From Sphaerolaimus hirsutus (Eukaryota > Nematoda > Chromadorea > Monhysterida > Sphaerolaimidae), in NCBI GenBank assembly GCA_964036195.1, contig OZ038451.1, positions 24,259,927-24,323,926 on the forward strand: a stretch of DNA of 64,000 nt. Reading direction: 5' to 3'. The notes below the pieces were generated by a model, which saw nothing but the letters and a program-made list of their open reading frames with translations, was not told where the DNA came from and did not search any database. A program made the position numbers and the translations under genes. Shown piece by piece: positions 3,410-40,900 of the stretch (positions within the stretch are counted from its first letter, which is position 1; every line of letters starts with the position of its first letter).

Positions 3410-3686
3410 GCCGGTTCCGCAAATTGAGAAGTGAGATGTAAAATGGCAGATGCCAAGTGAAATGGCAAAGGCTAAGTGGATTGAGAAGTAAAATGGCAAA
3501 TGCCAAGTGAATTGAGAAGTAAAATGGCAAAAGCGAAGTGAATTGAGAAGTAAAATGGCAAAAGCGAAGAGAAGTTACTTTTAATTTTTTACTTCGCTTT
3601 TGCCAATTTACTTGCCATTTCACTTCACTTTCGCCATTTTACTTCGCATTTGCCATTTTACTTCTCACTTCTAAATTGGCGGAACT
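3410..3686. repeat. Introner-related family I-1, intergenic copy
   Basis: The ends are GGGCCGGTTCCGCAAATTG and GGCGGAACTAGCAC. Inside are repeats of GAAGTAAAATGGCAAA followed by their inverse. This is the same family as the SHPK intron at 26923-27135, but this copy is not inside a recognised gene. Confidence 0.75.
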
Positions 3687-4146
3687 AGCACAAGTTTGGG
3701 GGTGGATGGGGTAATTATACCAATCATTTTTTTGTAATATCAGTTGTTCTTTAGATTTCGGGTAGGATACTGGGGTCCATTTCGCACTTTCAAGTGGAGT
3801 TTCAAGTGAAGGGTTAAGGTCAAAGTGGCGATCGAACCTGTCAGTGGCGGGTATATTCACCTTCACATCACTTGACAAAGTGCGGTATGGCCACTTTAAA
3901 GACCGGCGTCAATGAAGAAGTTTTACCCGAATTTGATCGAGCCGAACCCAGATAAGACAAGAATTATGCAAAGCTTCAGGAAAAATCAGAAATTCGAAAA
4001 AAGCTTTTTATTTTCGTAGTTTAAAACTGTCAACGAATGATTTGTTCGCACTCTGAACTGTATTGACATCATAAAATATCAATTGTGATTAGTGAAAAAT
4101 GGAGCCTGGCGCCCATTTTGTGACGATATTTCCATCGCTACCCGAT

Positions 4147-6305: not shown

Positions 6306-6489
6306 ATTGACAACTCGGTGTTTGCAGTGACGTTGCACTCTATCTCACTAAAATTCAATTTTACTTTTTGGACGTGACGGCCCAACGTACACCTGTTTTC
6401 GTTCGAGATTACGGAAACTGATAAATCAGTTTGAACATATTTGAGTTTACTGGAATGAGTCTGTCAACTACTGTTGACAGAGATTGAAC

Positions 6490-6879
6490 GGGCGTGCACT
6501 GATACGCACACGTGCCCGATACGCACATATGCCCGTTTTTTTCACTTGACACTTTTTCAAGTGATTTTCAGATATGGGTAAAGTGTAAAAAAAAGTTGCG
6601 CAATGACATTAGTAAACTTTTTCACTTCACTAATATCTGAAAATCACTTGAAAATGTGTCAAGTGAAAAAAAACAGTGAAAAATAGCCATTTTTCACTGT
6701 TTTTCATTTGACACATTTTCAAGTGATTTTCAGATATGAGTGAAGTGAAAAAGTTTACTAATGTCATTGCGCAACTTTTTTTACACTTTACCCATATCTG
6801 AAAATCACTTGAAAAAGTGTCAAGTGAAAAAAACGGGCATATGTGCGTATCGGGCACGTGTGCGTATCAGGCCTGCCCC
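6490..6879. mobile_element. hAT-like palindromic MITE family C, copy 1
   Basis: Exact 8-bp duplications GATTGAAC flank it (6482-6489 and 6880-6887). The ends are GGGCGTGCACTGATACGCACA and TGTGCGTATCAGGCCTGCCCC. The body is a multi-level palindrome of CACTTGACACTTTTTCAAGTG motifs. Other copies are at 17135-17506, 29472-29856, 38671-38893 (left end lost) and 57232-57487. Confidence 0.88.
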
Positions 6880-7342: not shown

Positions 7343-7490
7343 GTGCCACTCCCAGACACTGTAAATGTCAAGTGTCTGGCAGAGTGCCAAAAGTCATGTA
7401 AAGTTCCCTGTAAAAGGACAGACGATTCTACATCACTTGTGACACTTTGCAGGATAGTTTACATTCTACAGGGTTTGTGAGTGCTCGCAG
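7343..7490 (+). mobile_element. Probable introner (family I-2) forming a 5'-leader intron of GALNT
   Basis: The element begins exactly at a GT (CCAG then GTGCCACTCCCAGACACTG) and ends exactly at an AG (GGGTTTGTGAGTGCTCGCAG), two bases before the GALNT start codon at 7493. The termini match family I-2 elements that form whole introns at 51604-51886 and 55711-56243. Splicing in the leader is inferred, because no reading frame tests it. Confidence 0.55.
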
Positions 7491-13400: not shown

Positions 13401-14033
13401 ACCGCGTTTCGATTACATTCTGGGTATAAAATGTTCGGGCAACCAGAACATGCCATAAGGGGCAGTCCCGCACCCTCTAAAGTGTCAAATTTCATGGAAA
13501 ATGACAAACAATATTGTCAAGTGTCATGCAAATGTCAATAACAGGGCGCGGGACTGCCACCTGGTGCGACCAAGTGAACAGCTATTAGTGCTATAAGAGG
13601 TATTGTAATCGGTAGATCAAGTGACAAGTGTTTTCACACGGAAATCTACTTGTCACATTAAAGTTTATTGGTCACCTAACTTAAAACCTATCAGTTATCA
13701 CGAATATTGCATGAAGGTCGGGGCTGTCTTTCATGGTTTTTTAAAATTGGCGGAATGGCGCATGTTTTATGTTAAAATAAAAAAATAACAATGTTTCCAT
13801 CCAACCAATTTTCATATCCCTCGCAGGACCATTTGCGCATGTCCACGTGTGCCTTTCACAAAGTTGGCAACGATTACCATTGGAAGCACTCCAGGGAGTC
13901 GGGTCAACTTGTCCACGAAACCACGTCCCTGTGCCTCGATTCTGAGGGACTCAAAAATGGGGACGATGTTCTGATGAAGCCTTGCGTCGATGGCAAAGTG
14001 TCGCAAAAGTGGGAATTTGAAACTTATTTGTGA
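7493..14033 (+). CDS. GALNT11-like: Polypeptide N-acetylgalactosaminyltransferase, GALNT11-like
   Basis: Transfers GalNAc from UDP-GalNAc to Ser/Thr of proteins in the Golgi, starting mucin-type O-glycans. Coding exons join in phase to 585 residues: 7493-7605, 7973-8185, 8248-8295, 8704-8873, 9844-10015, 10553-10756, 11478-11595, 11785-11967, 12264-12398, 12503-12697, 13827-14033. Exon 1 gives a basic tail and hydrophobic anchor ([13 protein letters not shown]), a type II membrane start. Then follow the stem ([10 protein letters not shown]), the GT-A core ([24 protein letters not shown]), the metal-binding DxH as DSH in [13 protein letters not shown], and [13 protein letters not shown]-terminal ricin-type lectin domain has MLCLDT and [17 protein letters not shown] and [13 protein letters not shown] resemble the GALNT11 / fly Pgant35A subgroup. 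The exon 1-2 junction is inferred from phase only; the others are also supported by family alignment. Confidence 0.92.
8304..8642. repeat. Inverted repeat with CATGTAAACCCGCTCG ends, GALNT intron 3
   Basis: Left end GACATGTAAACCCGCTCGGC; right end CGAGCGGGTTTACATGT. It fills much of intron 3 and stops just before exon 4. Related pieces are at 8900-9062, 10075-10110, 18553-18645 and 45004-45435. Confidence 0.6.
8900..9062. repeat. CATGTAAACCCGCTCG repeat, second copy, GALNT intron 4
   Basis: Left end GTCATGTAAACCCGCTCGTC; right part GCGGGCGGGTTTACATGAG followed by GGGTTTACATGAG. It follows exon 4 by about 25 bp. Confidence 0.55.
9374..9785. mobile_element. hAT-like element with CAGGGACGTAGCCAGG ends, GALNT intron 4
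   Basis: Exact 8-bp duplications CCCCCTTC lie at 9366-9373 and 9786-9793. Ends are CAGGGACGTAGCCAGG and CCTGGCTACGTCCTTG, with G- and C-rich runs inside the arms. It has a GGCGCCATGGCGCC core and ends about 50 bp before the exon 5 acceptor. Relatives are at 47711-48111, 60389-62042 and 60754-61176. Confidence 0.85.
10805..11063. mobile_element. hAT-like element family D (TAGTGATGGAAAAGCGCCA ends), copy 1
   Basis: Exact duplications GCCCTGAC at 10797-10804 and 11064-11071. Ends TAGTGATGGAAAAAGCGCC and GGCGCTTTTCCATCACTA fit the hAT terminus pattern. The interior is permuted GGCGCCAAGCGCC blocks. It lies in GALNT intron 6. Confidence 0.88.
12770..13371. mobile_element. hAT-like element with (CCCGAT)n arms, GALNT intron 10
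   Basis: Exact duplications GACACCAT at 12762-12769 and 13372-13379. Ends TAGGGTCCAAACGGGATCC and CAATCCCGTTTGAACCCTA. Arms consist of tandem CCCGAT hexamers around a unique centre (about 12980-13145) that is shared almost word for word with the copy at 46038-46573. Confidence 0.9.
13456..13563. repeat. Introner family I-2, reverse-oriented copy in GALNT intron 10
   Basis: Ends GGCAGTCCCGCACCCTCTAAAG and GGGCGCGGGACTGCCACC. Orientation is opposite to the gene, so its GT and AG ends cannot act as splice sites here. Confidence 0.65.
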
Positions 14034-15558
14034 TTGTTTGCCAGTGTTGTGACTGTAATAGGGACTGGTGCCATTTTTTTCAAAGAGCCTTTGGTAGTGG
14101 ATTAAAGTAGCGTTTGTTAGCGTTTCAAAAATGTGTGATTTTCGGAAAATAGTTTGAAATAGGAAATTGAATATAATTTCAGATAATTTCTCAAAAATAA
14201 AATATGATTAAATCTCTCTAAACATTTTTCAGGGCCTGGGTGTGGCCCAGCAAAGACTTTTGGAATGCTATATAGTATGATGTTAATCGCAAATGCATTT
14301 TTACACCACTCATGCCGCTGTCGGATAAAAGGGAAGATGTTTACTTCTTCGGTACGCAAGTACTCATTCGGTCAGGGACGAATTTAGAACTTTTAAAAGG
14401 GGGGGGTGTGTATACAGAACTCGTGTACATTACGGGATAGGCGACACCGACCTATATCTACTTTACCTGGGTAGGGTAGTCTCCAGGCAAAATATTAATC
14501 ACCGATGCCACCCCCAGACCCTGTAAAATCTCAAAAGTCATGAAAAATGTCAAACTTCAAGTTAAAAAAATAAAATAAAGTTTGACATTTTAGAGGCTCT
14601 GGGATTAATGCAATGCTAAAAGGGGGGAAGGTAGGTGCCCCCGCCCCTGGCTTTTTCACTCGACTTTTCTTTCTTTTGAGCCTCCACTGTCACTCTCACC
14701 GTGTAGGCGGGCACTAGTCAGTTTTTGTGTTAAAAAATCTGTTTGTATGATGGGGCGTCAGCTGCTGATTGTGATTGCCATGTAATTACGATACATTCCT
14801 TCTTGATCTGTAATCGAGTATTTCTGCAACTATCTTTCATTTCTATTTTCGTCGGTTTGACTTTTTACAGGCGATGCGAAACTTTTTTCCTAATCTTTTA
14901 TTTTGAATAAGGAACTTAGGTATTCACGATACTTTTTTACGCAAGGAATTTTCCTATAGTTGCTTCGAATTTGATGAACGACCTAGTGGTCTCGAACTGC
15001 ACCCATTGCACGGAAACCATATTTCGCCTGAATAATGACCAAAAATAAATATTTATCTGCATGGTAAATTGTTTTTCGAAATTGTACAACTTATGGAATT
15101 TATCATGGTATTATTCATCGAATTATTTTAACATTTTGTGCAAAGCGTGCAGCCCAGTACGTAAATATAAATAGTGATGAAAAATTTAAATATGTGCCTT
15201 TCCTTTTGGTGCATTTTGCTTTCGATGTTGATCGAGTTGTTGCATTTTCGGCAGTTGTATTTATTTTTTTGAAATTGTATTATAACGGCTTGGGTATTTC
15301 ACTTTTGATCTGGGGATTTATTTAATTATATTTATATTTATCTATGTACATACAAAAATATAGCTATGTAGGTAGTTACAATAGTGATGGCAAACTGAAT
15401 AAAACTTCTATTCTTTTATTTATTTTTCCTAAAACGAGCTTTCAAATTTCAATTTTATTCCATGAATAAACTTCTATTTATCAATTTTTCCCCCTAAACT
15501 CCTATATCTTTTATATTTTGTTTGTTTGCCTTTCTGCATTGCCAGTGGTATTGGTACT
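14034..15558. other. GALNT 3' flank and spacer
   Basis: No exon is seen. At about 14507-14606 there is a small family I-2 inverted repeat (CCAGACCCTGTAAAATC and its inverse ending GGCTCTGGGATT). AATAAA-like A/T runs occur near 14197, but I cannot choose a polyadenylation site. Confidence 0.45.
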
Positions 15559-16429
15559 TGGTCTGGCTGAAAAGTCCCCGGGCAGTGCTCGCCATTCGCG
15601 CTAGGGGCAAGCTACGGACATAAAATTTTGACAGGTTTAAATATCAGGTGTTTTGAGTTTTCACCTAAAATTTTACCCCTCTAGCTCCACCCACTGCGGA
15701 ACTGTGAGGGTTAGAATTTGGTCATTTTGTACTGATGTACACATGGTGCTCCAGCTCAATGCTGCTTTAAGTTGTGATCATGAAACTTTCGCTAGTGTAA
15801 GCCACCAGTGTTGGCAATGTGCCAGCGCTACCCAACATTAGCTATGATATCATAAGCCTAGTCTATATTTGTCATTACTGTCACTACTCTCACTACCAAA
15901 TTCGTCATTCTGTGTCCTAATAGGTAATGTGTCCACTATACATTAGAAATGAAAGAGGGAGATTTTATTCACATAGTTCATTTACTGCTCATTTCAAAAC
16001 AGACTTAAAATCACTGGAATACAACATGATCTCAGATGATCATCAAAAACATCTATCATCAAAGATCACAGTTCCCACGTTTCTTGCACATCACCCTGAT
16101 ATGCATATAAATTTTACCTTAATAGCAATGATGTTGATGAAAGTGTTGAATACTATCAGTATCGGCACATTGCCAACACTGGTGGCTTACACTAGCCAAA
16201 GTTTCATGATCACAACTTCAAGCAGCATTGAGCTAGAGCACCATGTGTACATCAGTACAAAATGACCGAAATTGTAACCCCCACAGTTCCGCAGTGGGTG
16301 GGGCTAGAGGGGTCAAATTTTAGGTGAAAACTCAAAACACCTGATATTTAAACCTGTCAAAATTTTATGTCCGTATCGTACCCCTAGCGCGAATGGCGAG
16401 CGCTGCCCGGGAACTTTTCAGCCAGACCA
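15559..16429. mobile_element. Long foldback element with about 280-bp arms
   Basis: Starts TGGTCTGGCTGAAAAGTCCC and ends with the inverse ending in CAGCCAGACCA. The arms stay nearly complementary for roughly 280 bases, through CTAGCTCCACCCACTGCGG and TAAGCCACCAGTGTTGG, and flank about 300 bp of middle sequence. GTAC borders both ends, a possible 4-bp target duplication. Short open frames inside are not coding-like. Confidence 0.75.
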
Positions 16430-16767
16430 TGTACATTTGTATTTATGTATTTACCTACTACCTACATACATATTTATGTATTTACCTGAAATACATTAAT
16501 AAACGAAATTCAGAAGTATTTATTATAGAATACATTCGCGCTTTCTGTGGTATAAATATTTCTTTCAACCAACGAGTAAATGGTCAATAGAAATTGATTT
16601 CAGCTCTTGTGGCGAACGCACACAGAAGTGTCACATAGTGCACAGTACGTTGCATTTACATATTTCATGTATTTTACATCACTCAACGCGAAATGACTCA
16701 TTTATGTGCAACATTCAATTTAAACAGAACCGGCCCCAGACCCCCCCCCCCCAGTTGAATATCAAAG

Positions 16768-19700
16768 ATGAGCCGTGACTTGGAGCCTTCTGGACCGGTG
16801 CCGGGCGTCAGCTACCCACTCAAAGTGACCTATTGCGGAGGTGTGTTCGGTTGCTGCATTGTGCCTACACTCACCGTGACTTCGTGTGAAAACTGAAATT
16901 TTTTCAAATGCAAATTAACGAACACGGTTGAATGATTTAATTTAATTAAAATTTAGATTTAAATTAATGAAAGTTAAAATTTGAAAACTAAAAAACATAG
17001 CATACAATAAGAGAAAACTGGATGTCGCCATGTCGCCATTTCAGTTTTCACATCAATCACGGTGAAAAGTAGTGTGTGTAGGGCCATTGGTCACTATTTA
17101 AGTGCCCTCATGTGCGCTGTGTGGTGGTCAAACTGGGGGCAGGCCTGATACGCACATTTGCCCGTTTTTTCACTTGACACTTTTTCAAGTGATTTTCAGA
17201 TATGAGTAAAGTTAAAAAAAGTTGCGCAATGACATTAGTGAACTTTTTTAACTTCACTCATATCTGAAAATCACTTGAAAATGTGTCAAGTGAAAAAAAA
17301 CAGTGAAAAATAGCCGTTTTTCACTGTTTTTCACTTGACACATTTTCAAGTGATTTTCAGATATGAGTGAAGTGAAGAAAGTTCACTAATGTCATTGCGC
17401 AACTTTTTTTCACTTTACTCATATCTGAAAATCACTTGGAAAAGTGTCAAGTGAAAAAAACGGGCAAATGTGCGTAACGGGCAGATGTGCGTATCAGTGC
17501 ACCCCCGTCAAACTGTACCCCCGCCGCAGTGTGCAGCATGCCGCTGGAGTACTGCGAGCAGGGCGGCAGCGCGGACCAGTGCAAGAAGTGGCTGTCCGAC
17601 GCCCTGCCCGACATGTTCGCGCAGATGTACGCCGCTGAACAGACTGAGGGTGAGCGTGAGACTCGTTCTTGAGCATATTTACGTATGCTTGGTCGACTTG
17701 ATACTCTGCACTCGCACATGTTATGTCTCACGTTGGAAGTATGCCAATGATAATCAAAGCCTGTAATTTAAAAAAATTCATTGTTGTGAATACGGAATGA
17801 ATAACGTTATAACAGCAATGAATTTTTGTAAAACTTTATGAAAATCGCATGCGTTAAATATCTTTGGCACGCTTCCGGCGTGAAACACGCGTGCAAAGTG
17901 TGAAGTCACTGGAGTATACTCAGTTGTGAAGGCGCTGGTTGCAGTGCCCGCCATTTCGCCCTTTTCCGCTTAAATTAGCCACTTCAGATTTTAATATTCA
18001 GTTCTCGATACATTTCAGCGCATGACTTTATCACTGCCATACTCATACGACACTCACAAAATTCATCCAGTTTACCAACTCGAGTCCAAGCGCACATTGC
18101 ACACTTTAGCTCCGCCCACCGACGGCGGCGACAACGAAAGCGGCGCGGCTGCGGCAGCGCCAAAGAAGCAAAAGCGCGGCGGCAAGGGATCAAAGCCGGT
18201 GCCGCCGACTGCGGGCAACAGCGGCAACGCGCTCGGCCCCAATGCGAAAGTGACGCTGAAACGCGAAGCCAGGGCTAAGAATAAGACGCTAACAATTGTG
18301 AAGGGATTGAAGGGCTGCGGTTTGTTGGGTGGGGCACTTGGGTCTGAGCTTTGGGTGGAAAGAAAACAAGAACATAGTGGATGGCGCCTTAGTTGTAATG
18401 ATAAAAGCATTTTTTGGTTTTGGATTCATTGGTTTTCTGACAGTAAACCTTTTTTCGATCAGGTGAAAAATTCAAACCCTGACAGGTATTCTGTCAAGTG
18501 ACAAAATTTACGCAGCTTTTTAATTCCCATGTACAGGTGTTTACAAATACCATGTGCCTGTAGTCACGTAAACCCGCTAGTCATGTTGACCCGCGCTAAT
18601 TTCCTAGTGCTGTGCTACATGACTAGCGGGTTTACATGACTAGTAAGCCTACTTTATTACAAATTCCTGGGGCCAGATTTAATTCTCGCTACAAATTTTC
18701 GCAAGTTATGCACTACACCCTATTAGTGATGGAATGGCGCCATGGCGCCATTGGCGCTTGGCGCCCTTTTTTTGTGGCGCCCTTGGCGCCTGGCGCCCAC
18801 ATTCTGAAAGGCGCCATGGCGCCCTTGGCGCTTGGCGCCCTTTTTCCGTGGCGCCCTTGGCGCCTGGCGCCCTGCTTTAGAAGGGCGCCAAAAAGGTGCC
18901 AGCAAGGTTTCACGGTGAGTGCTGTGTAAACGAAAAAAAAGAAAGCCGCATCCGTGGATGATCTAAATTCGCCAGAAAAATGGACGGAGTGGTGTGAGTG
19001 GGTGGAAATCTTTCGTCCAACGGTTCATCAGATCTGTCTGACGGATCAGAAGACAAGAATGATGGACCGTCTAACTTGCAAAATCATAAATAAATGGATT
19101 TAAATCGTTGCAATTAGGAAACATTGTTTGGAAAGGTCTATTTGTAATGAATGGATTGTTGTCAAATGACAATTTCCATTACGTTTGAATTCGTCATGTG
19201 GATTTTATTCAAAAAATTTTTTGTTCCTGGCCTTGTTTTTTGTCATTACATCCTGGAGAACGCGAATTAAGATCTGAATGCATCTTAATCTTAATTAAGA
19301 TCTGAATGAGGTCTGAATGAACGCGTATAATGGTGCTGGAGAAACATTTTTAGCACACGCATGGTGTTGTAGGCACTTTTTTATCCTGGCCGCCAGCCTG
19401 GCGCCCTATTTTCCAAATGGCGCCATGGCGCCCTTGGCGCTTGGCGCCCTCTTTCCGTGGCGCCCCTGGCGCCTGGCGCCCACTTTCTCAATGGCGCCAT
19501 GGCGCCCTTGGCGCCCTTTTTCTGTGGCGCCCCTGGCGCTTGGCGCCCACTTTCCGAATGGCGCCATGGCGCCTGGCGCCATTTTTTCTGGCGCTTTTCC
19601 ATCACTACACCCTATACGCGTCACCCTACACGCCCGACAAAACCGTGTACAATTCATAGCCGAGTCATGCGCGTAAGGCACCCTACAAACCAATTCCCAA

Positions 19701-24200: not shown

Positions 24201-25787
24201 AGCGCCAAGCGCCAATGGCGCCAGAGCAAAATAGCGCCAAGCGCCAAAAGCGCCATGGCGCTTTTCCATCTCTATTCCTGAGAGATTCAGTTATATTTCC
24301 TTTTTTAAATATATTTTTGAAAATATCAGAAAACCTCCCAGAAATATAAATAATATTGATAACTTGTCCAGGTTTTTCAATAGAGATTTTCTTATATTTT
24401 CTTTTTGATAGATTTTTTAAGATTATATTTATCTCATTACATTTTCCGAAAATCACCAGTTTTTTTTAGCCAATCACAATACAAGAAACTTTTCTTTTCA
24501 GAAAATGGGATCATACTTCGCGTGCCCATAATGTATGGCAAATGTGAATATCTGGGCGAGGGTGCAGTCGACGAGGTGGCCAAGAATATCCTCGCCGCAC
24601 CAAAGGGCGCACCATTGAAATTGGATCACTACCACAGAAGGTACCCACTGAACACTGCCGATGCCGCGGCTACCCTGTACCTTCTTTTAGACGCCAGGAT
24701 GAAGGTTGAGTTATTTCAGCTGGCAAATACGTGATGCCTTGTTCCGGCTAGTCACAAATGCCAGTATTTATCCATGTGTTCACCTGGACTGAAATCTCAA
24801 AAAATTAGAGGATGCATAAAAGTCATAAATTTCGAATTTCAACTGCTTACGGATGTGTATTTGTAAAAAATTTCGTTGTTGTTTTACACTTTGTGTGCAT
24901 GTATTTCGTTTGCATTTTACCCGAGTATTAAGGATGTAAATTTTTTTTCCACGCACAGAAAGGTTCCGCTGGTGTGGTAGGTATTTACCACTGGGCCGGT
25001 GATGAGTGCCTTACAAAATATGACATGGCCGTGCAAATAGCAAAGGTAGTTTTTCAATACCCCCCCCCCCTCCCGTCGTAATGGACCGGGGGCCGCAAGT
25101 GGAGAAGTGAGAAGTAAAATGGCAAAAGCGAAATGAATTGAGAAGTGAAATTGCACAAACAAAGAGAAATTATTGTGTATTTTTTTTACTTCGCTTTTGC
25201 CATTTTATTTCTCACTTCTCCACTTGCGGAACTGACACCAGTTCACTGGTCGCTAAACTTACTACTCATTTACTTGACTTGACACTTTTCATGTACCTTG
25301 CAACATTAGTCAGTGTTTTTGCCACTTCATGGCGGCCCAGATACTAGTTTGTACACGTCTGTCATCTGGTCTGTGTCAACTGAGATTTCGGCTTCACGTG
25401 TAAAAGCGCAATGTACCAACGCACCTCACGCGATATTTTTTCAACATTGCCGCATGTGCATTTGGAGATCCCCCTGCGACACGTGAACCCCAAATCTGAG
25501 TTGACACAGACCAGTTGACACACATGTGTCAACTAGTGTGTGGGCCGCAATAAAGTGCATTGGCACCAGTGCGACTGCGCAATGCACGTTTGCGTTACTC
25601 GCAGGCTTTTAAACTGCCACATAACCACTTTGTGCCAAATGAGAATGCACCCAAAGATGGCGCGGCAGCGACACGCCCATTTGATTGCAGGATGGGTTGC
25701 AAAAAAATGGTGGACCTGGGTGCAAAGAATGAACTGCCATTTTTGGATTGTATACAGAGAGATTGGAAGGGGATGATTGTGGGATGA
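21231..25787 (+). CDS. MAT2B: Methionine adenosyltransferase 2 regulatory subunit beta (MAT2B)
   Basis: A short-chain-dehydrogenase-like protein that binds NADP and the MAT2A catalytic subunit, tuning S-adenosylmethionine synthesis. Six exons join in phase to 307 residues: 21231-21413, 23177-23291, 23834-23986, 24502-24704, 24959-25045, 25605-25787. Visible are the Rossmann start [13 protein letters not shown] (residues 5-17), [19 protein letters not shown], the Tyr-xxx-Lys pair in [19 protein letters not shown], and [17 protein letters not shown] near the C-terminus. It is slightly shorter than human MAT2B (334). Intron 1 contains a 717-bp hAT-like element and intron 5 contains two MITEs, the second ending about 55 bp before the last exon. 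SHPK ends tail-to-tail 160 bp away. Confidence 0.95.
22068..22784. mobile_element. hAT-like element with (ATATCG)n arms, MAT2B intron 1
   Basis: Exact duplications GTCTCGAG at 22060-22067 and 22785-22792. Ends TAGGGTTCAAACGATATATCG and ATATCGTTTGAACCCTA. Each arm is a run of ATCGAATATCGAT-type units. It shares its terminus with the GGGACC and CCCGAT elements but not its arm sequence. Confidence 0.9.
22970..23108. repeat. Degenerate family D element, MAT2B intron 1
   Basis: Left GTGATGCGAAAAGCGCCATG and right GCGCCACGGCGCTTTTACATCAC are an imperfect pair of family D ends; the middle is eroded. Confidence 0.5.
24141..24274. mobile_element. hAT-like family D, short copy, MAT2B intron 3
   Basis: Ends TAGTGATGGAAAAAGCGCC and GGCGCTTTTCCATCTCTA. 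Flanks TTCTTGAG and TTCCTGAG match at 7 of 8 positions. Confidence 0.8.
25088..25236. repeat. Introner family I-1, reverse-oriented copy, MAT2B intron 5
   Basis: GCCGCAAGTGGAGAAGTGAG at left and CTTCTCCACTTGCGGAACTG at right, with AAAATGGCAAAAGCGAA arms. Its orientation is opposite to MAT2B, so it does not define the intron. Confidence 0.7.
25331..25549. repeat. MITE family A, copy 2, MAT2B intron 5
   Basis: Starts GGCGGCCCAGATACTAG and ends GTCAACTAGTGTGTGGGCCGC. The arms TGTGTCAACTGAGATTTCGG and CCAAATCTGAGTTGACACAG are inverted. Confidence 0.75.
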
Positions 25788-25947: not shown

Positions 25948-28500
25948 TCATTTCACTTTGCCACGTTCACAATGGAATAAAGCAACTCCAGTGGCAGAGG
26001 CATTTTGAAAATTCACCTGCTCAACATTAAAGTTTTCAAAACATCTCTTGATGGTTTCATTGAAACCAGGCTGGCATGCTTGACCACAGAGTTTAATATT
26101 AGAAATCCCAGCTTCATGCAAAACATTGCTTGGCATCATGTTCAGAAGGTTCAAAATGATACCCTCAACAAGTGAATGTACAATCTGAGAGTTTGTCTGA
26201 CTTTTCCATATCATCAGTTGATGGTTGTCAGTGGGGAACTTACCAATTTCAAGTTAAAATTTTCTGGGGTGATGTTGCTAATTGATGCTGTTGCAGTAGG
26301 GTTATGTCTCTCCCCAAACAATGTTGGAATAATGTGCATCTTCAATTGTGGGTTTTGCGCATTGTCATTTGATGTAAGTGAATCATTGATTACCTGCCAC
26401 ACATCACACATAGGCACAGTCTGATTTGTAATCTGACCACAGGTGTCTTGAAGAAACTGAGAATAGGCATACAGATGGTATATTGATAGATGTAAAAATT
26501 TTCCTCCATGATAAAATTGGTTTTTGTTCACCTGTGCAAACGCAGCTAGCACATTGCCTCCATTGAGCGAGGCCGCAACTGAAATTGACTTTCCATTCAA
26601 ATATGACCATGTTTGAACTGAATGGTTGTTGTCACATTTTGGGGCACTTTGCGCTGTTGCAAAAGCCAGTATTGATGATGTGCCAATGTTCAGCACTGCA
26701 ATTCAGGGGGCATGCGTCGTCAATGCGGCGAGTTTGAAAGGCATGGAAATCATCAGTGAATCGAATACTGACCTGCAGATCCGGGTTGATCTGCTCTAAA
26801 GAACGAGGCCTGAAAATCTCCCCAAGCCGGGTACAATTTTGCATCACATGGAATGCTATATTTGTTCCCACCAACAGTTCCAACGGATTGATTCAGTGGG
26901 ACTATTGTTGGCAAATTGAGACCTGGGGCCAGTTCCGCAAAATTGAGAAGTGAAATGGCAAAGGCGAAATAAAAGTGCGAAGTGAAACCGCAAGTGAATT
27001 GGCAAAAGCGAAGTAAAAAAATAAAAATACAAAGTAATTTCTCTTCGCTTTTGCCATTACACTTGCCATCTCACTTTGCCTTTGCGCTTTTACTTCGCCT
27101 TTGCCATTTCACTTCTCATTTTGCAGAACTGGCACCTGATGGAAAACCCAGTTCAGCAAGCCTGTGAATTTGTACGAATAGTCGAGTAGGTAGTACCAAA
27201 ATCATCACAGATGCGTTTTCATAATAACCCACTCAGCAGTCTGCCATTTTTCGGTAGTTACATCAAAGAAACCCCAACCATTTGCATTTTGAGCTGACAT
27301 AAATGCCACCTTTGCGCCAGAAATAGTGAACAAAAACAAATCCATTATAGTGCCACAACAGTCAAATTTCTTCAAATCAGGCAATAGGCTGTGCTTCTGT
27401 AACCAGAATACTGTTGAAATGCCAAAGCCAGTGCTCATGCGCCTGTGCAGAAATGTTAAACTTAAGTAAAGTAACGAAAGGAACATCTATTTATACACCG
27501 TATTTGCTTGAATAACTCCTCCCTCTTAGACGTGCGAGGATAAAATAATTCCCCCCTTAACGCATATGATCAATTTGTTTTGTACAATTTGAACAAATTT
27601 TGTTATTTTGTGAATAAAGCATATCTTGATAGAAACATTCTTGGAAATTTTGACGAAATAACAATTAATCCCCTTGAATAATTCCCCCTCGAAAAGTTCC
27701 TCCCACGAAAAATCTGACGAAATCATAATGCTCCATGGGAATTATTCGAGCAAATACTAAATTTAGGTAGCTAGAGGGCGAATAGCACAGAACCCACAGC
27801 GCGCATCGTAGATGCTCTAGTTTTCAGCCGAAATTTTGGAAACTGATGAATCTGTCATCAACACATTCGATTTTACGATTCCTTCTAATCGGTATCATTT
27901 TCGATCGCTGTCGACAGTATTCCGGTAAACTCATTCAAATTCAAATGGTATGTTTTCAAAGCTGATTAATCAAATTTCCGAAATTTTGGCCGCAAACTGG
28001 TGTCATGGGGTCATCGTCACTCACTGGTGTGACTTCACCGACAGTTCACTCAAAAGCACTTCCTCACATCTTTTATCCATCCATGTGACAAGGTCAGTGC
28101 AATGTTCGATTGGTTCACTACCTGTTTTGTGGAACAGATGTCACAGACTGTGAATGCTTTGGTATCAATGAATGCCAAAAATGACAGATACGTAACTGTT
28201 CCACAGGACAATGCCATGCATCTGGCCGGTGACGGCGACCTTTGTCACGCTCTGCATGTGCTGGCTGTCTACGCTGCCGAGACAATTCCCAATTGCATCC
28301 ATGATCAGGGGGACGCTCTGCTCATGGTGCCCATCTGGCAAGCCGCCAACAAGTGCATTGTGTGCCGCGTGGCTCTCGCACAGAATCGTACGAGTTTCAG
28401 CGTCCACGACAGCGCACTTCACATGCGTTGTGCCGATGTCAAGCCCCAGTACTGAAAGTGGAATGGACGGAACACTCAACACAAGGCGGGTAATACCCAC
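25948..28500 (-). CDS. SHPK: Sedoheptulokinase (SHPK / CARKL)
   Basis: A FGGY-family kinase that phosphorylates sedoheptulose to sedoheptulose 7-phosphate for the pentose phosphate pathway. Eight exons, read right to left, join in phase to 470 residues (human 478): 28197-28500, 28025-28121, 27233-27442, 27136-27161, 26773-26922, 26532-26695, 26244-26456, 25948-26196. Exon 1 carries the phosphate loop LGLDIGTTHVKCAVVD and VTGQMHGIVLW. Later exons carry LVTWMDKRC, GFGISTVFWLQKH, AWGDFQAS, VLNIGTSS, VAASLNGGNVLAAF and IIPTLFGERH. Exon 4 is only 26 nt and encodes LAELGFPS. The intron after it (26923-27135) is exactly one family I-1 element. The start is the ATG giving nine or more residues before the conserved GLDIGTT strand; a later start is possible. 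Confidence 0.93.
26923..27135 (-). mobile_element. Introner (family I-1) constituting SHPK intron 4
   Basis: Read on the minus strand the intron starts GTGCCAGTTCTGCAAAATG and ends TTGCGGAACTGGCCCCAG. These are the two inverted ends of a family I-1 element, with the GAAGTGAAATGGCAAA arms between. Upstream exon ...GFPS(G) and downstream (G)LNLPTIVP join in phase 1 and match the SHPK family without gap. The intron therefore holds nothing but the element. Confidence 0.82.
27498..27759. repeat. TA-flanked MITE family B, copy in SHPK intron 2
   Basis: ACCGTATTTGCTTGAATAACTCC on the left faces GGGAATTATTCGAGCAAATAC on the right, with CCCCTTGAATAATTCCCCC-type arms. The right end is diverged. Confidence 0.55.
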
Positions 28501-28535: not shown

Positions 28536-29122
28536 TACCGTATTCCCTCGAAATAACCCCCTCAAAATGAATTTATAACCCCCCCCCCCTTGGGCCAGTT
28601 CCGCAAAATGAGAAGTGGGAAGTGAAATGGCAAAGGCGAAGTAAAAGCGTAAAAGCGAAGTGAAACAGCAAGTGAATTGGCAAAAACGGAGTGAAAAAAG
28701 AAAAAGTTTCCTTTTGTCATTTCACTTGCCGTTTCACTTCGAATTTGCGCTTTTACTTCGCTTTTGCCATTTCACTTCTCACTTTGCGGAACTGGCACCT
28801 GGAAATACCCCCCCCCCCCCCAATTGAGTGTACAGAGGACGTAGATGACAGAAGCTGCGATTTGTGATCCGGGAAGTGCAGAACACACGTTAAAAACGAT
28901 GTCTGTGTTATGTTAGAACATGGTTTATATCATCTACATACATATAAACAATAGACCCTTATACATGGTGCTTATTGTTGAAATTTCTACGTCGACATAC
29001 GTTACAAACAACAAATGAGTACCGTGAGTTCCAAATAAATTTTGCCGAAAAAATAAGCACCCCCCTCAAAATTATCACTCTCAAACTATCATCCCCGGGG
29101 GGTATTTCGAGGAAATACAGTA
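28536..29122. repeat. TA-flanked MITE family B carrying an introner-family insertion
   Basis: Starts TACCGTATTCCCTCGAAATAAC and ends GGGGTATTTCGAGGAAATACAGTA. A family I-1 element sits inside at about 28592-28800 (CTTGGGCCAGTTCCGC ... GCGGAACTGGCACCTGG), in the orientation that would be spliceable on the minus strand upstream of the SHPK start. It could be a leader intron, but nothing tests that. Confidence 0.6.
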
Positions 29123-29471
29123 TTTATTTACACCGGTGACCGTTGGCCCGCGGAAAACGTGAACCGTACTTCAACTCAATGCACGTGAACACTTCTCGAG
29201 TATTTTCCGTCGAATAATAGCAAAAAGTAGAAGCACCGAACCCCTAATTTACGCCCCCGGTATCAGCATTTAGTTTCGCCATACCTGCGCTACGCTCGAA
29301 TGCCTCCATCAGTGAACGCAGGCACTGTAAAACCCGTCAAGCCTGTAAAATGTAAACCCATGTAAAGGGGGTCGGATAACCCCACTCCAAACCGCCCAGC
29401 TATCTACCTATCTATCTATCCCAGATGCAATTTTTTTGTTACCTTCCCGTGAACACCCCCCCACGCAAATT

Positions 29472-29856
29472 GGGGGTGCACTGATACGCACATCTGCCTG
29501 TTACGCACATTTGCCCGTTTTTTTTACTTGACACTTTTTCAAGTGATTTTCAGATATGAGTGAAGTGAAAAACGTTGCGCAATGACATTAGTGATCTTTT
29601 TTCACTTCACTCATACCTGAAAATCACTTGAAAATGTGTCAAGTGAAAAACAGTGAAAAATGGCTATTTTTCACTGTTTTTTTTTACTTGACACATTTTC
29701 AAGTGATTTTCAGATGAGTGAAGTGAAAAAAGTTGACTAATGACATTGCGCAACTTCTTTTCACTTCACTTACATCTGAAAATCACTTGAAAAAGTGTCA
29801 AGTAAAAAAACGGGCAAATGTGCGTAACGGGCAGATGTGCGTATCAGGCCTGCCCC
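29472..29856. mobile_element. hAT-like MITE family C, copy 3
   Basis: Ends GGGGGTGCACTGATACGCACA and TGTGCGTATCAGGCCTGCCCC. Flanks ACGCAAATT and ACGCAAACT differ at one position, consistent with an aged target duplication. Confidence 0.82.
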
Positions 29857-31909: not shown

Positions 31910-34900
31910 CTAACGATTCAAGTCGGAATTCTCGCGACTTATCATCTCTTTGGGCGTTTTGGGCGGCGACGGGACCGGCGTCCGAACGGTCGTCACGCGG
32001 CTCAGAAATCGATCGAACACGAGAAAAGCCAAATTGTCGTGCAGCGTTTCCAGCGAACGCAGCGGCGGCCAGAAACGCTTGATCTCTGCAAACGCAATTT
32101 GTGGTTGAAATTGAAAATGCAAACTAGGTGACCGCCGTACGGCAGTGAAATATAACCAACCAGTAAATGGTATGACATTGTTAGCCTCGGTCATGTCGAG
32201 CTTCGGAGCGGACGAACTCCGCCCAATTATGGCGGTCGACAAAACCACCGGCACGGCTCCTTCAAATGCAAAAATATCATCGTGACTCAACAAAATATCG
32301 CCACATTGGCGGCGCTCACACCAGTTGGAACGTGTGTGTCAACTGACCTGTGTCAACTCAGATTTCGGCATCCAAATGCAATGCATGCAAATGTGGCAAT
32401 GTTGAAAAATAAATATTACGGCAAGTGCATTGGAAGACAGCCCTGCGACATATGAAGCCGAAATATGAGTTGACACAGACCAGTTGACACATGTGTCAAC
32501 TAGTGTGCTAGCCGCCAGCGCAGTGAACACAAAGCGGCGCACCATAGTGCCAGGTGCTGGTGCTGGCCGCGTTGCTGGTGGCGTAGCACGCGTGCGGCTG
32601 CGTGCCCGCCGTGCCCGACGCCCGTCGCCCGTTCTGCTGCTGACCTTGGCACGGATCCAAACGGTGCTCCGCGTCGGCGCAATTGGCATCGTGTGCGTGT
32701 TGACCGTATCTGCGACGAGATTTGTCTGTCATGCTGCGAAGAACGAGTCACAGTGGTGGACATCAAACACCCCGGGATTGCGGGCAGTTCGCCGCTAAAA
32801 TACACAGAACCAATGAAAACAACCACCAATGGTAACTTGTATGTGTAAAATTGCGCGCTTTCATGACAAAAACTTGCAAAACACCTAGCGACGAAGTACG
32901 AAAAAATTTTTATATTTGGTGTTGAAAAACAGGTTGCGATGGCTGCGTTTAAAAAAAAATAACTCTGGCCATTGCTACTCATAACCATTGTTCGGTTTTG
33001 AGAAATATCGTTTTATTTAACCGACTCAATAGCCTGGCCATCCTCCTCGGCGATGGTCTGCGTGCTGCCAGTCAAGTTCGCGTTGAGCGTCTGCAGCTGG
33101 TCGTGCAGGCCGCCCGCGCCGCCGTTGGGCTGCGACCCGCCAATGGCGGCACTTTGCTGCGCGGCTGCCGCGGCGCCGATCGCCCCCGGAGCCGAAGCCA
33201 CTTGGGTCATCGGAAAGCCGCCGGGCGACGGCGAGTGCACGTGGCAACCGGTCGTCTGTGGATGTGCCAAAAATGTGATAAGTTCAATTTCCACAAGTTG
33301 TCGAGCGAACAAAGCAAACAAGATACCCCTGGTTGGTGGTAAGAAAAGTTGAGTTGTAAATCTGCAAATGGTACTTAAGCGTACTTTTCAATTGACATTC
33401 CATTTGAAATTTTCTTGCCACTTTCTTGTGACTTTAAAATTTTACTGATAGAGGTGCATCAGTTCCACCAGTGTCGCGGCAGCGCCGCTGTTTCCCACGA
33501 GAGCGGCATTCGCGCTGGCGACGGATATGCGGCTCGGCGTGGACTCCCTGCTGTCGCCGGACACGGGCGCCGACTGCACAAAGTCCGACGCGCCGTAGCC
33601 GGGCGTCATGGTGCTGGTGCTGGACGCGTCGGCGCTGCGGCGGCCCTCGGTCGAATTGGACGCGTTCGGCGACCCGCCCGTTATCACCGCCGTGCTTATC
33701 AGACGGTTGTCACCATCTGCGGGCAGTGACAAGTGTCAAGTGCAAATGTTAGAGCCCAGATACTCAAGGCAAATAATAACAAGCATCGAAACCGCAGCTG
33801 TTTCACTGGATATTTTGCTATTGGGCCCACCCACGCTAGTTGACATAGACATCAAATGTCAACTGTGGGGCCATTTTTGCGCTTCTTTGACTCATAACCA
33901 AATTTAAGTTTCGGATAAAAACGTTGTGTTATCACAAACCGGTTTTTTTTAAACAAGAGTTGTAAAAAGCGTATTTTCCCAAGACGACCGACCCCGAAGC
34001 AGGTTGACTGTGTGATGCTTGAATCTATAGGGCGTGAGCCTCCTGGCCGCGGCCACAGCGCTGAAACTGTGCGGGTGCGCCATGCCGCCGGCCGGGTCGT
34101 TGCTGCCCACGCTGCTGCGATGCGTGCGCGCGACCGCCCTGCCGTCGTTGCCGTCGCCGGTGGCCGAGTCGGGCAGCGGCTTGTCCGATGCCGGCTCTTC
34201 CACGTCCAGGATGCTGACGCGGCTCTGCGTTAACGCGACAATTGCAAATTGTGCCGCAGCGTGCATTTTGCCGCATGCGTGTTCAAGTTAGATCGATGGG
34301 TCGAATGAAAAGTTGCGTGCATGTTTTGTGAGCCGGAAAAGTAATCACGTCAGACGGAAATGGGAAAACACGGATCCTCACGTAAAAACCTCACCACTTT
34401 TACAGCATCCATCGGGCTGTGGCTGAAGCTTCTGTAATAGGCGACACCATTATCATGACTGTGTTTCTTCTTCACTTTCACTACCGTATCCTTTGTTTTG
34501 GATACGGTAGGGACTGAATAAGACGCCGACGACACAACTGTGGATTTTGGAGTATCACTGCCGCTTTGCGCCCGCTGTCGAGGCTTATCACACTTTTCAG
34601 GCTTGCCGTGTCTCTGTGGACATGTTACTTTTTGGCGTTGCAGTTGAGAGCTGCGAGAGGTGTGCAGCGGGTTGTTAGACTGCAGGCTTCGGGGCAAGGT
34701 GGCAAGCAGTTATAGATGGAACAAAAAATAGGGCAGAAAGTGTTACAACGGTGGACGACCTTTCGAGCTGCGATCCAATGGCGGTCGCCGTGCCAGGCTC
34801 CTCCGGACCGGTACCGGTACCGGAACCGGGCCGTAAAACCGCACCAAGTTGCTGTAGGATGGGATACAGTGGTAAAATACTGGTCTAAAGTTGGGGTTCT

Positions 34901-37900
34901 CTCAGGATTAAAGATTCTATAGGTTTGAATTATCGGGTGAGTCATCACGATGTAATGATAGTGTAAACAAAACAATGGTTTAAATCAACTCAATCTAAAT
35001 AAGTGTTATTACCACGGTAGGATTCGCAAGCAACTCCGGCTACCTCAATACAGCTCAAAAATAATCTACCCAAAAAAACGGACACTCACATCCACTTCCC
35101 CTTCCGGATCGGAGTCATACTCATGTTCATCATAGACCAAGGACACCAGGGGGCAGTCCCAGACCCTGTAAAAAGCCCTGTAAAATGTCAAATGTCATGC
35201 AGTGTCAAAAGTCATGGAATGTGCCATGCAAAATGGCAAAATATTTGCCCTTTTGCAGAGCATTTTACGTGACTTTACACTTTGCATGACATTTGACATT
35301 TGACATTTTACAGTGTCTGGAACTGGCACCCGGTCGCTCTCGTCCCTGCTGGGAGGCAGCAGCAATTGGCGGCCTGCCAGCGCGGACGAGTCGACTTCGG
35401 CTGCGGTCGCGCCGCCGTGCGAATGGGCTGCGTGCAGTTCGGTGCAGACGCGCGACGACGACACGCAGCTGGCGTACGAGTGCGACTTGCGCAGGCGGCC
35501 GCCAGCCGGTTTGCACTTGTGAGCGTGCTGCAGCGGGCACGCAGCCAGGATGGGGGTGTCCAGGGAGGCCTGCGGGGCGGTGGCTAGTGAACACTACTCA
35601 GAATTGCAGTTCGTGCCATTATAGTCCGGATATCACTTCCATTCTTTTCTTATACGCGGTGGACATCACAGTTAGTGTGAAAACATACCATAACCCATCT
35701 GAATAATGAACCAAAAGTTATACAATTTTTTCATCATGTTATTTCTTTTTCACAATGCAATAATTAATTACGAAATTTCTCACAATATTTTATTCATTAA
35801 ATTATGGTAGGTTTTCATACTAGGTGTACTGTCCACCGGGTATACTTACTTAGCACAAAATTTGACACTCATATTCATTTCTTCGGCTAATTTTTTCCGT
35901 CTTCCAATGATATTCTTTTGTTTTACAAGTTACAAATTGTTGAAATTAAATATAAATAATATAAATGAAAATTATAACCCAAAATGTCAATCCGAGTACC
36001 AATAACGTGAAAATCTGCCCGTCACTAGCATTATTCAGTTGCCTACCTATCAAAATTAGCGCAGGGGACAGTGTCACATCCTGTCAAGTGAAAAGTGACA
36101 ACGAACCCTGTGACAACAATTCTTTCCCAGCACTCACAACTTCACAGCCAATCTAGTCACCCGTCACCAGACCCTACAAAGTTGAACTCGACTCACCGCC
36201 CTGCCCTTGGTGTCCTTCCTGGGCGTGGGCGTGCTGGTGGCCGCGTTGGGCGGCGGCGAAGATCGCGGCGATGTCTGCGCCACTTCGGCCGGCGCTGCGA
36301 ACAAATTAGTTGCGGGTAGAAAAGGGCGAAAAAGACCATTTTAGGGATATTTCACAGATTTTTAACGGTCTATTCCCAACATACATGAGGTAAAATATGC
36401 CAAAAATGATAGATAAATTTCAACAGTTGTTGGTTATGTATGAGGCGTAATTTCGCTCGGATTGATTTGATTAAGACTGCCAATACAAGTATACAAAAAT
36501 ACACGAAGTGGAATCAGCCAGTCTGAGGATGTATTGGCGCACCGCACACTCAAAATTTTCAAGGGCGGTTCGAACGTTTTTGAGTTCCGCCAAGGCAGAA
36601 CTCCAAGGGCGGTTCGAACATTTTTATTTAGGAAAAAATGTGGCATTTTTAGGACATTCGGATGAAATTCACACGAATCCGGATGAATTCACACAGTTTT
36701 TGTCCATTTGCATATCATAACAAAACGTTTCAAAAACATTGGGACACTTTCAATTCCGCCATTGACTTAAGAGATACGCCCTTTAGAGAAGGTTGTTATG
36801 GGAAACACATCTTATTTATCTTACCAAACATATTTGTGAAAACAATTTTATAGGTAGATCTAGGCTTTGTCTTCAAAAATGAATAGATAATTTTTTAGTA
36901 ATGTCCACTTATTAAAAAGATATTGAAGTTCACCGTGTGGCATATTTGTGAAAACCAAAACTGAATTCCACCCTCTAGAAAGTGTCCGAATGTTTTCTTG
37001 CCTAGATGACGCACTGACACTCAAGTCTGACATTGTCAAGGGCGGTTCGGACATTTTTGAGTTCTGCCAAGGCGGAATTCCAAGGGTGGTTCAGACATTT
37101 GCACTTTCCTACCTGTCTGAAATAATTCCGCCCATGCACAATCCGGGGCAATTCCGCCATCGTGCAAAGTGTTCGAACGTTTCATGTGCGGAATTGAAAT
37201 CGAGGGCAGTTCGAACGTTTTTGGAATCCTCCCCCGTTTTTAATTCCGTCCTTTTGAATTCCGCCCTTGAAAAAGTGTTCGAACAGCAACTGAAAATTTG
37301 AGTGTGCCGTGCAACAATGTGTGGTTGAATATTTTCTGAAAATATTAGGCACATTTGATAAATTTTGTGTTTTTGTAACGCGATACTCAATGCATTAAAG
37401 GCTTCGTTCAGGCTTAAATTTAATACAATTTTGTTTGAAAGTACGAATAAAGCCCATCAAACGACACCAATCGAACAACTATGGTGTAAAAATTAAATGA
37501 TTTGGAGGGACAGAAAATATTTTTCCAATCATACAGCACATAGGATTTTTTTATATGTAGTGATGAAAAAGCGCCAGAAAAAAGGCACTATAGCGCCATT
37601 CTGAAACTGGGCACCACAGGAAAAGGACGCCAAGCGCTCTTTGGCGCCTTCAAATAGCGCCATTCCATCACTTGGTACATGTAACTAGGGGAGTGAACAG
37701 CCAGACGAGTGTTAAATACAAAAATAAATAAAAAAACTAAAACACATGTGGTGTCAGCATTGTGGTCCTGCATGCGGCCGGGCGGTGACACTAGCAGATA
37801 CAGTGCTCCAGTTACTTTTTTTAAAATGAATACAGTGTTTACAAACATTCTAAAAGGTCGTGGATTGGACATACTGAACCTAAGACATTGGGATACACAT

Positions 37901-40900
37901 TCGGATACAGTGTTACGCTCGGTACAGCTCAAACCCATGCTCTGTGGTAAATATCTTGTGGTGAAACCCATGCTCTCTAGGGATGGCCAAAGCTTTCCTC
38001 AACCCTTTTTTTCAGTTGCTTTTAAAATGTACAAATTTAGAAATGTCTAGACTTTTTTAAATAATCAGGGCCGTTGAAAAAAGCGCTTTTTCCGTCCTTA
38101 ATTTGAACAGCTAAACAACACACCAAGGCAACGGAATAGCCTCCTCACCAAAAAGCTATTTTTCCCATTATCGATGCATGCAGTTTTTACAGGTTTTCTT
38201 AAAACGGTTTAAAAACTCCCCGGTTTAAAAACGGTCATCCCTAATCGCAGCATACAAAAGCAACCCAGCAGTTGCACACAAATTTAGTTATGTATATACT
38301 CGGCGGACCGCAAAGCATGCGCCCAAAATTATTTATGTCTTGATCGATAACGCGCGAGCTGGATACTTATGTATGCACTTTCACAAAAAGAAAAATAATA
38401 ATAATAAAAAAGGCGGAGTCTTTCCGAAATGTTTTTTCTTTTTTTGCTGGAATTATTTTATATTTTATTAATGATGACGTCATGATGGAGTGTTTCCTTC
38501 AGAAAAATGCATAGCGTGCGGTCCGCCGAGTGTACACAGATGCATCACTTTGCACACACATTGCAGGAAGTTTTAGTCAAGCCAAGTCAAGCATGTGTTC
38601 TGAGATCCCCTCACCAAAAAGCAACCAAATAAAGGGGAACGCTTTCAAAATGTGTCCAAAGGTACCAAAATGTGTCAAGTGAAAAAAAACAGTGAAAAAT
38701 AGCCATTTTCACTGTTTTTCGCTTGACACATTTTCAAGTGATTTTCAGATATGAGTGAAGTGAAAAAAGTTCACTAATGTCACTGCGCAGCGTTTTTCAC
38801 TTCACTCATATCTGAAAATCACTTTAAAAAGTGTCAAGTGAATAAAACGGGCAAATGTGCGTAACGGGCAGATGTGCGTATCAGTGCACCCCCGACATAA
38901 TGATGATTCAAAGTTAACAAATTGAATATCGACACAGAAAAGTCACATCTATGATACAATCCAACTCCTAATCGTCGCACATCAACGCCTGTTAGCTAAT
39001 CATGGCCAACTGATAGAAAAGCTTGGGATGGAAGCTTGGCAAAGGGAAGCATATCACCAGTAGGTTTGGCTAGTTTTTAAACTGTCTCTTCTGAAAATTT
39101 CTTAACTACCGATTCACATGTTATTTTGCACAATTTTTGTGAGCGCCCAATTATTTCTAAAATTTTTCTTTTTGGAAAAATCTTTTGGAACAGCTTTTTT
39201 GGGTATTCTATATACCGTATTACCTCGAATTAACCCCCCCTTGAATTAACCCCCCCCCCCTCGAAATACCCCCCCTAAAATTCAGCTGAGGAAATAATAA
39301 ACCCCCCCCTCGAAATACCCCCCCTAAAATTGAGTGTAAAGAGAACGTACGTGACAAATACGCAGTTAGTGATCTGTACAATGCAGAACACACGTGAAAA
39401 ATGATGATTAGGTCACGTTAGGGAAGGTTTTATGTGTATATACAGTTATATATGCGTATAAACACATAAACATCTATGTAATTGTTCGATTTTTCTACGT
39501 CTGCGTATGGGGAATTTCCGAAAATTTCCGGCGAAATAATAGACCCCCCTCGAATAAACCCCCCCCTCGAATTATCACCCCCTCAAATTTTGCTGGCGAA
39601 ATAATAAACCCCCTGGGGGTATTTCGAGGTAATACGGTAAAATGACTTGACAAACTGTATATCAAAAACAATCTTGGTTGGGAGATAACATTTGTTTATA
39701 TACAGCCACCTGATTTTATGTTTTTAGTTTTTAACTGCTCTTTATAATCAAACATATATTTTCGTTATCACCCAGGCATTCATTACAATAATATTTAGAA
39801 ATTTTACAGCTATCTATAAACTTTGTAGGTGACCTCTCACACTCTAGCCACCCAGTAGGGTCTTGTTGAATTTTTTTTATATTATTTTCTGAAGTTGCAA
39901 GCCCATGATAGAAGAAATGGTAGCCCAGGTAAAGTAGCACACCACATTATTTAGTACTTAGAAGCATGCCGCATGCGAAAGCTAGCAATCATGGTCACAT
40001 TATCGATTACACGACGAAGGACATGATATAATCGGAAACGCGCCGCTCCACTGTTTCGCGTGGCTGCGCGACATGGTTGCAGCGTTCCCATGCGCACCTT
40101 GGCCCTTCGCCGCGCGCAGCACCACATGCAGGGGCTCACTGAATTGCGGCGCCTTGTGCACCTCGCCCAGCGACACGAGGTTCACGTGCGTCGCCGACTG
40201 CGTGTAGCTGTCGTCCTCGGCCTGCGACGAGTTCTCGCCGTCGGACGCGCCGCACTCGGCCTCGTCGGGCTCCGTGTCGCTGTCCGACAGCTCGCAGCTC
40301 TCCGAGGCGCACCCGCCCTTGCCGCCGCCGCAGCTGGACGGGTGGCCGCGCGAGCAGCACGAAAGGGCGGCCGATTGCTGCGGCAGCGGCGCCTGGCTCG
40401 ACCGGCTCCAGGTGCGCTTGTCTGCGACAACAGGGTCTGTGGATGGACCGACAATGGGCAGTGAAATGAACTGACAATCTGTGGCGCTGGTTGTCGTTGT
40501 GATGGGATCGGAGGGCCGGTCGGAGAGGGAGCCGGACGTGGACGAGGACATCTGGCCGGCGATCGGCGCCGACAACAGCTGCGACGCCGCTGACAGCGAC
40601 GATTTTGTGGCCGCTGCATGCAAAAATACATGATGTTTGTATGATCAAAAAATAAGTTTGTTAAGTTATCGAGTTGGGAAAATACTGGTATATTTAGAAA
40701 ACGTAATTTTTATCAAACCTAAACCGTAACCTAAACGTAAGTAAATACGTTTCCGCAACCCTGGTTTTCTAAAGATGAATTTTCCTGCACGACTGACCCT
40801 TGCTTGCCCGATCAGAAGTATCGATCGCATCTGCTGCCGCGCCATCGTGCTCGTCAGCGCTGCCGGTGCGTGTATTTGACCTCGAAATTGACGCTTTCTT

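Follow-up and report, generated by a model that had tools for sequence, protein, structure and literature searches.

The closest described systems are the introners and a group of animal DNA transposons. Gozashti et al. (2022) report introners that are accompanied by duplications of 3-9 bp and take their splice sites from the element or from the duplication; among animals and land plants, they name two groups only, both of them animals (PMC9860276). NuwaI, which belongs to the PHIS superfamily, makes 3-bp CWG duplications and has termini that usually start with GGG, and in the survey that describes it, it occurs only in animals (PMC4482050). The word "intron" is absent from the main text of the NuwaI paper (PMC4482050). 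In a full-text search that was thin on subscription journals, the terms "introner" and "Harbinger" occur together in one paper, which deals with fungi.

Here, a 64-kb stretch of DNA from an animal-like genome (the window) was analyzed, in which several introns and exons are associated with one superfamily of inverted-repeat elements. As in the introners of Gozashti et al., the putative intron consists of a short, non-autonomous element that has inverted termini, a duplication of 3-9 bp, or both, and several families occur in one genome. As in the introners of Chrysochromulina, the 5′ site would lie on the element and the other site would come from the duplication, although in the example of that type the duplications are 4 bp long and inverted repeats are lacking (PMC9860276). 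With NuwaI the elements share 3-bp CWG duplications and, if the host is an animal as it seems to be, the animal distribution. As to termini, one end starts with GGG in the two-ended family A copies, and the ends of family B vary. The elements differ from NuwaI in that one terminus starts with GTG, and in that no transposase or Myb/SANT gene was noticed in the window on reading the sequence, as distinct from a profile search (PMC4482050). In Fritillaria borealis, non-canonical introns likewise have a triplet (there YAY) that precedes the 5′ site and recurs as the final three bases of the intron. However, their commonest ends are AG..AC and AG..AT, whereas here the ends are GT..AG or GT..TG, the triplet is CAG or CTG, and ordinary introns fit GT..AG (PMC13326754). 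None of the elements of the window combines YAY with ends of the AG..AC or AG..AT type. Hairpin-forming inverted repeats and short direct repeats at exon edges are also known from the introners of Amoebophrya, where the host is a dinoflagellate and splice sites are highly variable and mostly non-canonical (PMC7789003). The element was absent from viral and prokaryote collections (pattern search) and from plasmid collections (similarity search), as expected for a eukaryote. That the host is an animal is suggested by its gene content (GALNT, PPIP5K and a MAT2B-like ORF). Rfam and tRNA scans of the window yielded no hit of use for placing it. The introner kind is already known; its NuwaI-like, CAG-duplicating, foldback form appears, for an animal-like genome, to be a new variant.

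Intron 4 of the SHPK-like kinase gene

The kinase gene (Table 1) is called SHPK-like after the human sequence. Its intron 4 (26923-27135, minus strand) reads GTGCCAGTTCTGC...GCGGAACTGGCCCCAG, starts with GT, ends with AG, and is flanked by CAG (27138-27136) on one side and GTCTC on the other. The two halves of the intron are inverted copies. The first-pass annotation took this intron to coincide base for base with an inverted-repeat element whose termini give both splice sites. The GT..AG ends, the inverted repeats and the supply of the GT donor by the element bear this out, but the last CAG (26923-26925) is best read as a target duplication, and it is most likely this duplicated CAG that provides the acceptor AG.

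The eight-exon join (28451-25951) has zero stops and matches Pfam FGGY_N with E=2.2e-20 over residues 1-212, with the intron 4 junction inside the match. Against a solved xylulokinase, an earlier version of the join shows a one-residue gap two residues past the junction, the join being the longer; human SHPK also has one residue fewer in this region. The extra residue is neutral or counts slightly against exact exon restoration in SHPK. The earlier claim that the SHPK segment is restored without a lost residue agrees with the open 449-aa frame and with the FGGY_N match across the junction, close to which the join has one residue more than xylulokinase. Since splice sites in SHPK and PPIP5K were picked for GT..AG ends and a restored frame, the statement that all introns of these genes are GT..AG is partly true by construction. 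Three other in-frame acceptors are available to the donor of SHPK intron 4.

By reading of the sequence, retention of element A1 (26926-27135) in the SHPK-like mRNA would bring an in-frame stop at the seventh codon past the exon edge, and a retained element in GALNT, treated below, would also lead to early stops. These stops, together with two insertions at CTG that have no AG at the exact edge, would fit the view that the exon copies are unspliced, gene-breaking insertions, namely unfixed or null alleles, or pseudogenes. However, the remainder of SHPK and of the modelled part of PPIP5K is open, PPIP5K is strongly conserved, copies at CAG give exact GT..AG ends, and by BLAST the SHPK copy shares no more than 80% identity with the copy nearest to it (28589); we therefore consider gene breakage very improbable. 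Because of the 80% identity, the SHPK insertion need not be recent.

SHPK-like intron 4 folds almost end to end, with -129.3 kcal/mol where shuffled sequences average -51.0 (z = -18.7), and five further copies fold with -56 to -89 kcal/mol. Such folding invites the idea of structure-guided removal, in which the hairpin joins the ends and ordinary splice-site recognition is not used; such a route has been suggested for some introners of dinoflagellates, and the Amoebophrya introners have inverted repeats, direct repeats of 3-5 nt and variable ends (PMC7789003). This idea is most improbable here, since insertions at CAG end normally in GT..AG, the ordinary introns of SHPK and PPIP5K can all be modelled as GT..AG, and a transposon of this kind should have a foldback shape in any case.

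The PPIP5K intron

What we regard as the strongest second case after SHPK is an intron of a PPIP5K gene, in which the element, flanked by CAG on either side, separates the exon ends AACATTTACTACCCCAG and CACCGTGGGC. With the element removed, a typed 274-residue stretch aligns with solved PPIP5K2 (3t7a) over 273 residues ungapped (E=9.6e-115), and 3t7a, a human protein, reads YYPTSAGGGSQRLF at the element junction in this alignment. Thus, no codon is gained or lost, as the duplicated CAG predicts. The part of the gene that was modelled has seven GT..AG introns and 350 open residues. A better-looking acceptor, TTTACAG, precedes the terminal CAG by 19 nt, but its use would break the frame; five later in-frame AGs are available to the same donor.

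It might also be thought that the element jumped into an existing intron, the remainder of which was later lost, so that the matching ends are secondary. Copies inside ordinary introns do exist (47592-48167, 49875-50038 and probably 62751-63751), but these three lie away from exon edges and are oriented against the gene. In SHPK and PPIP5K, on the other hand, the fit of exon, CAG and terminus is exact to the base at either end, and chance deletion would have to produce it four times. We find such a history very hard to credit, and prefer the direct creation of both introns by insertion.

At 48400-48530 of the same gene (minus strand), CTGGAAAT^GTGAGT (a caret marks a splice boundary) is followed by ATG TAA GGC TAT TTC AGC, as read by eye. 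Either a TAA stands where the human sequence leads one to expect Tyr, or the acceptor has moved to TTTCAG^CGGG.

Proposed mechanism of intron creation

Inverted termini of GTGCC and GGGCC, CAG on both sides, and an open, family-matching protein after removal from GT to CAG are observed directly. Repeat similarity reaches both splice boundaries, as placed by the gene models, at SHPK and PPIP5K, and the inverted termini and the duplication form a signature of DNA transposition. From these features we infer transposition, splicing and the order of events. SHPK-like intron 4 was very probably made by a non-autonomous, hairpin-forming, NuwaI-like (PHIS superfamily) DNA transposon inserting into an exonic CAG, and the same mechanism would apply to the PPIP5K intron and probably to the GALNT 5′ intron. 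The transposon would insert into an exonic CAG, and this CAG would be duplicated. The second base being T in one terminus and G in the other, the element would itself supply the donor CAG^GTGCC, and the second CAG, from the target duplication, would provide the acceptor AG. Splicing would then take out the element and one CAG and give back the original exon, its length unchanged. Only one orientation would work, because the reverse orientation puts GGGCC at the 5′ side.

Orientation in the window is consistent with this: 4/4 copies in coding exons are sense and 3/3 intronic copies are antisense (P=0.029, for a chosen 7 of 15 copies with one gene named tentatively, the eight copies of no clear coding or intronic place being left out). 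The donors are weak by a splice-site matrix (-0.3 in SHPK, 0.3 in PPIP5K, -2.4 in GALNT and -2.5 in the 35-kb exon). If the PPIP5K intron, and probably that at the GALNT 5′ end, arose by the same mechanism, members of the superfamily serve as introners here. In this respect the first-pass annotation, which inferred that the genome has, or had, active introners, gains from PPIP5K and probably GALNT, but the word "active" is not borne out, the SHPK copy being 80% identical to that at 28589.

This would be a concrete and checkable route for intron birth in an animal-like genome. With CAG as the preferred target, serving as exon end and as acceptor, insertion, duplication and a GT terminus would together produce a functional intron at once and leave the protein unchanged. 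New introns tend toward CAG^G-like places, and CAG-targeting would help explain this tendency.

Target duplication

Among 14 copies tabulated for their flanks, nine have CAG ahead of the GT end, two have CTG, two CGG and one CTT. Without the two copies found by the duplication rule, CAG precedes the GT end in 7/12 (P=7e-11). Identical 3-bp flanks are present in 6/14 tabulated copies, all CAG or CTG, including exact CAG/CAG flanks at SHPK and PPIP5K; two of these six were found only with the CWG rule. When the count is limited to the 11 two-ended tabulated copies also present in the terminus-only scan, flanks are identical in four (P=1.8e-5 at 1/64 each), again all CAG or CTG.

The flanks are unequal in seven two-ended tabulated copies and also in a fifteenth copy (49875-50038, CAG/AAG), and one further tabulated copy has lost an end. 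Since two unequal-flank copies have nearly intact termini (28592, CAG/AAG; 57170, CAG/CAA), either some insertions lack an exact duplication or part of the outermost sequence belongs to the element itself. CAG may thus in part be the end of the element, or the target may be loosely chosen. When 3-bp duplications of every kind next to GT and inverted ends were scanned for, CAG was not in excess (2/149 anchored pairs), other palindromes being dominant, and an early consensus scan picked up mainly palindromic repeats of other kinds. The window showed no paralogous empty site.

Insertions at CTG

The GALNT gene, identified from its catalytic start (E=5.2e-16 to GALNT12), has two insertions. The first (7343-7490) stops two bases short of the ATG. 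The second (7583-7928) has CTG on both sides, and its exact removal gives an uninterrupted membrane anchor. A similar insertion is found in an exon near 35 kb, where exact removal with GT..TG ends leaves an open frame with nothing lost; this gene has zero matches in Pfam to E=0.1 and zero in NCBIfam. A frame restored by exact removal is, however, not evidence of splicing, because any insertion with duplication restores it.

If spliced exactly, the CTG insertions would be unusual. A CWG-targeting transposon could make introns from both of its targets, with CAG giving GT..AG, and CTG, in the GALNT anchor and the 35-kb exon, giving GT..TG with TG as the sole 3′ site. We think this rather unlikely, and exact GT..TG splicing is rated so low because in-frame canonical alternatives exist. 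For GALNT 7583-7931 there are 14 canonical in-frame pairs, such as CAA^GTGACC with TACCCTAG^CA. The 35-kb exon has 17, all of which alter the protein; for example, CGG^GTGCCA with ACATGAG^TA loses nine residues. The chances are about even that nearby canonical GT..AG sites are used at both insertions (GALNT 7583-7931 and 35147-35329) and that the exon gains or loses residues. These pairs speak for such use, as does the finding that human TG 3′ sites are reported, in a screen covering up to 36 nt, only as alternatives to an AG site (PMC2374985). On the other side stand the intact GALNT anchor and the open 35-kb frame after exact removal, though these are expected of any duplicating insertion, and the poor pyrimidine tract (0.44) of the ACATGAG acceptor. 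If exact splicing were true, GT..TG introns with TG as the sole 3′ site would be a new intron class made on landing. The CTG insertions are a natural test of TG in this role.

Survey of the element superfamily

Copies were gathered by a terminus-only scan, by a scan for CWG flanks with inverted ends, and by a motif search, which gave one damaged copy. From 111 pairs in the terminus-only scan, 11 with family termini at both ends were picked by inspection. The CWG scan gave 43 pairs scoring at least 9; six with family termini were retained, and 37 were discarded on inspection as unrelated, overlapping or chance. With partnerless single ends (for example, near 16736) left out of the count, the window holds at least 15 superfamily copies, namely the 14 tabulated for flanks and that at 49875-50038. 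When up to 3 mismatches are allowed, the motif GCGGAACTGGCCCCAG has 14 matches in the window against 0.40 expected. The relatives first annotated at 3410, 25088, 28592 and 57177 were recovered by BLAST, and that at 62752 by the end motif and the terminus scan.

Two families were distinguished. The interior of the SHPK element is common to family A copies to a varying degree. Family B has an interior unlike that of family A (CTGTAAAATGTC...) and similar outer bases, G(T/G)G(C/G)CA.TYC, so that within the 64 kb surveyed the SHPK (A) and PPIP5K (B) introns have common termini and unlike interiors. One terminus starts with GTG; the opposite terminus is GGGCC in 6/6 two-ended family A copies and variable in family B. 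Element lengths in the window are 102-1001 bp, and the longest stop-to-stop ORF of the window is 265 aa. The possibility that an AG-free 3′ arm is an adaptation was rejected: only the GALNT anchor copy stands out among six copies tested (p=0.003), and the arm of the SHPK copy is ordinary for its composition (p=0.11).

The short ORF at 58 kb has zero Pfam matches to E=0.1 and zero NCBIfam matches. The plus-strand exon beside the 62751 copy, putatively ORC3-like, also has zero Pfam matches to E=0.1. At 57930-58241 (minus strand), two family B-like elements, one at 58104-58241 and one running down from 58100, were seen by eye to stand head to tail with a single shared CAG, an arrangement that insertion of one element at the edge of the other would give.

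Table 1. Positions of element copies and associated gene features in the window.
Feature	Position	Strand	Basis
Element A1 proper, 210 bp, inverted-repeat hairpin	26926-27135	minus	GTGCC as predicted 5′ splice site
CAG target duplication, 3′ copy, read as acceptor CAG	26923-26925	minus	flank comparison
SHPK-like exon 4, 26 nt, 3′ end is the other CAG copy (27138-27136)	27136-27161	minus	gene model
SHPK-like exon 5	26773-26922	minus	gene model
SHPK-like kinase gene (FGGY family), 8 exons, 449 aa open, 7 introns GT..AG as modelled	25951-28451	minus	gene model, Pfam
Family A copy, 5′ of first modelled SHPK exon, CAG/AAG	28592-28798	minus	BLAST, flank table
Family A copy, other palindromic repeat inserted (57225-57487), CAG/CAA	57170-57622	minus	flank table
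Family A copy, CTT/TAG	3408-3691	minus	BLAST, flank table
Family A copy, one end damaged, CTG before GT end	25088-25238	minus	motif search, flank table
Family A copy, weak far end (63751), CGG/CTG, adjoins plus-strand exon, antisense to its gene	62751-63751	minus	terminus scan
Family A-like element (7583-7928) and CTG duplication, splits GALNT membrane-anchor codons, exact ends GT..TG	7583-7931	plus	CWG scan
Family B element and CAG duplication (CAG/CAG), before GALNT ATG (7493), GT..AG, probable 5′ UTR intron	7343-7490	plus	CWG scan
Family B element (35150-35329) and CTG, within coding exon, CGG/CTG, exact ends GT..TG	35147-35329	minus	terminus scan
PPIP5K intron, whole family B element (51607-51886) and CAG duplication, GT..AG	51604-51886	minus	scans, gene model, alignment
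Family B copy within PPIP5K intron, antisense to gene, CAG/AAG	49875-50038	plus	flank check
Family B copy past PPIP5K exon, antisense, CAG/CAG, holds other repeats	47592-48167	plus	CWG scan
Family B copy holding other repeats, CAG/AAG	55714-56243	minus	terminus scan
Short family B copy, CAG/TTA	13459-13560	minus	terminus scan
Family B element, CAG both sides, 3′ of short ORF	58104-58241	minus	CWG scan

Other repeats and genes in the window

Another palindromic family, a double hairpin with ends GATACGCACAT..GCCCG, is found at 6484-6879, 17143-17514, 29469-29856, 38667-38900 and 57225-57487. The last of these lies within a family A copy and thus landed after that copy. A third palindromic family of about 220 bp is present at 610-826, 25323-25557 and 32305-32517. 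Large near-perfect inverted repeats at 15554-16434, 46038-47470 and 62117-63155, with longest arms of 135-191 nt that are 90-94% complementary, exceed most introner-type elements in size. Dispersed repeat arrays of the CCCGAT type with long open frames were seen at 12770-13371, 46038-47470 and 53149-53294. Beside the GALNT and PPIP5K genes, the window also holds a MAT2B-like ORF.
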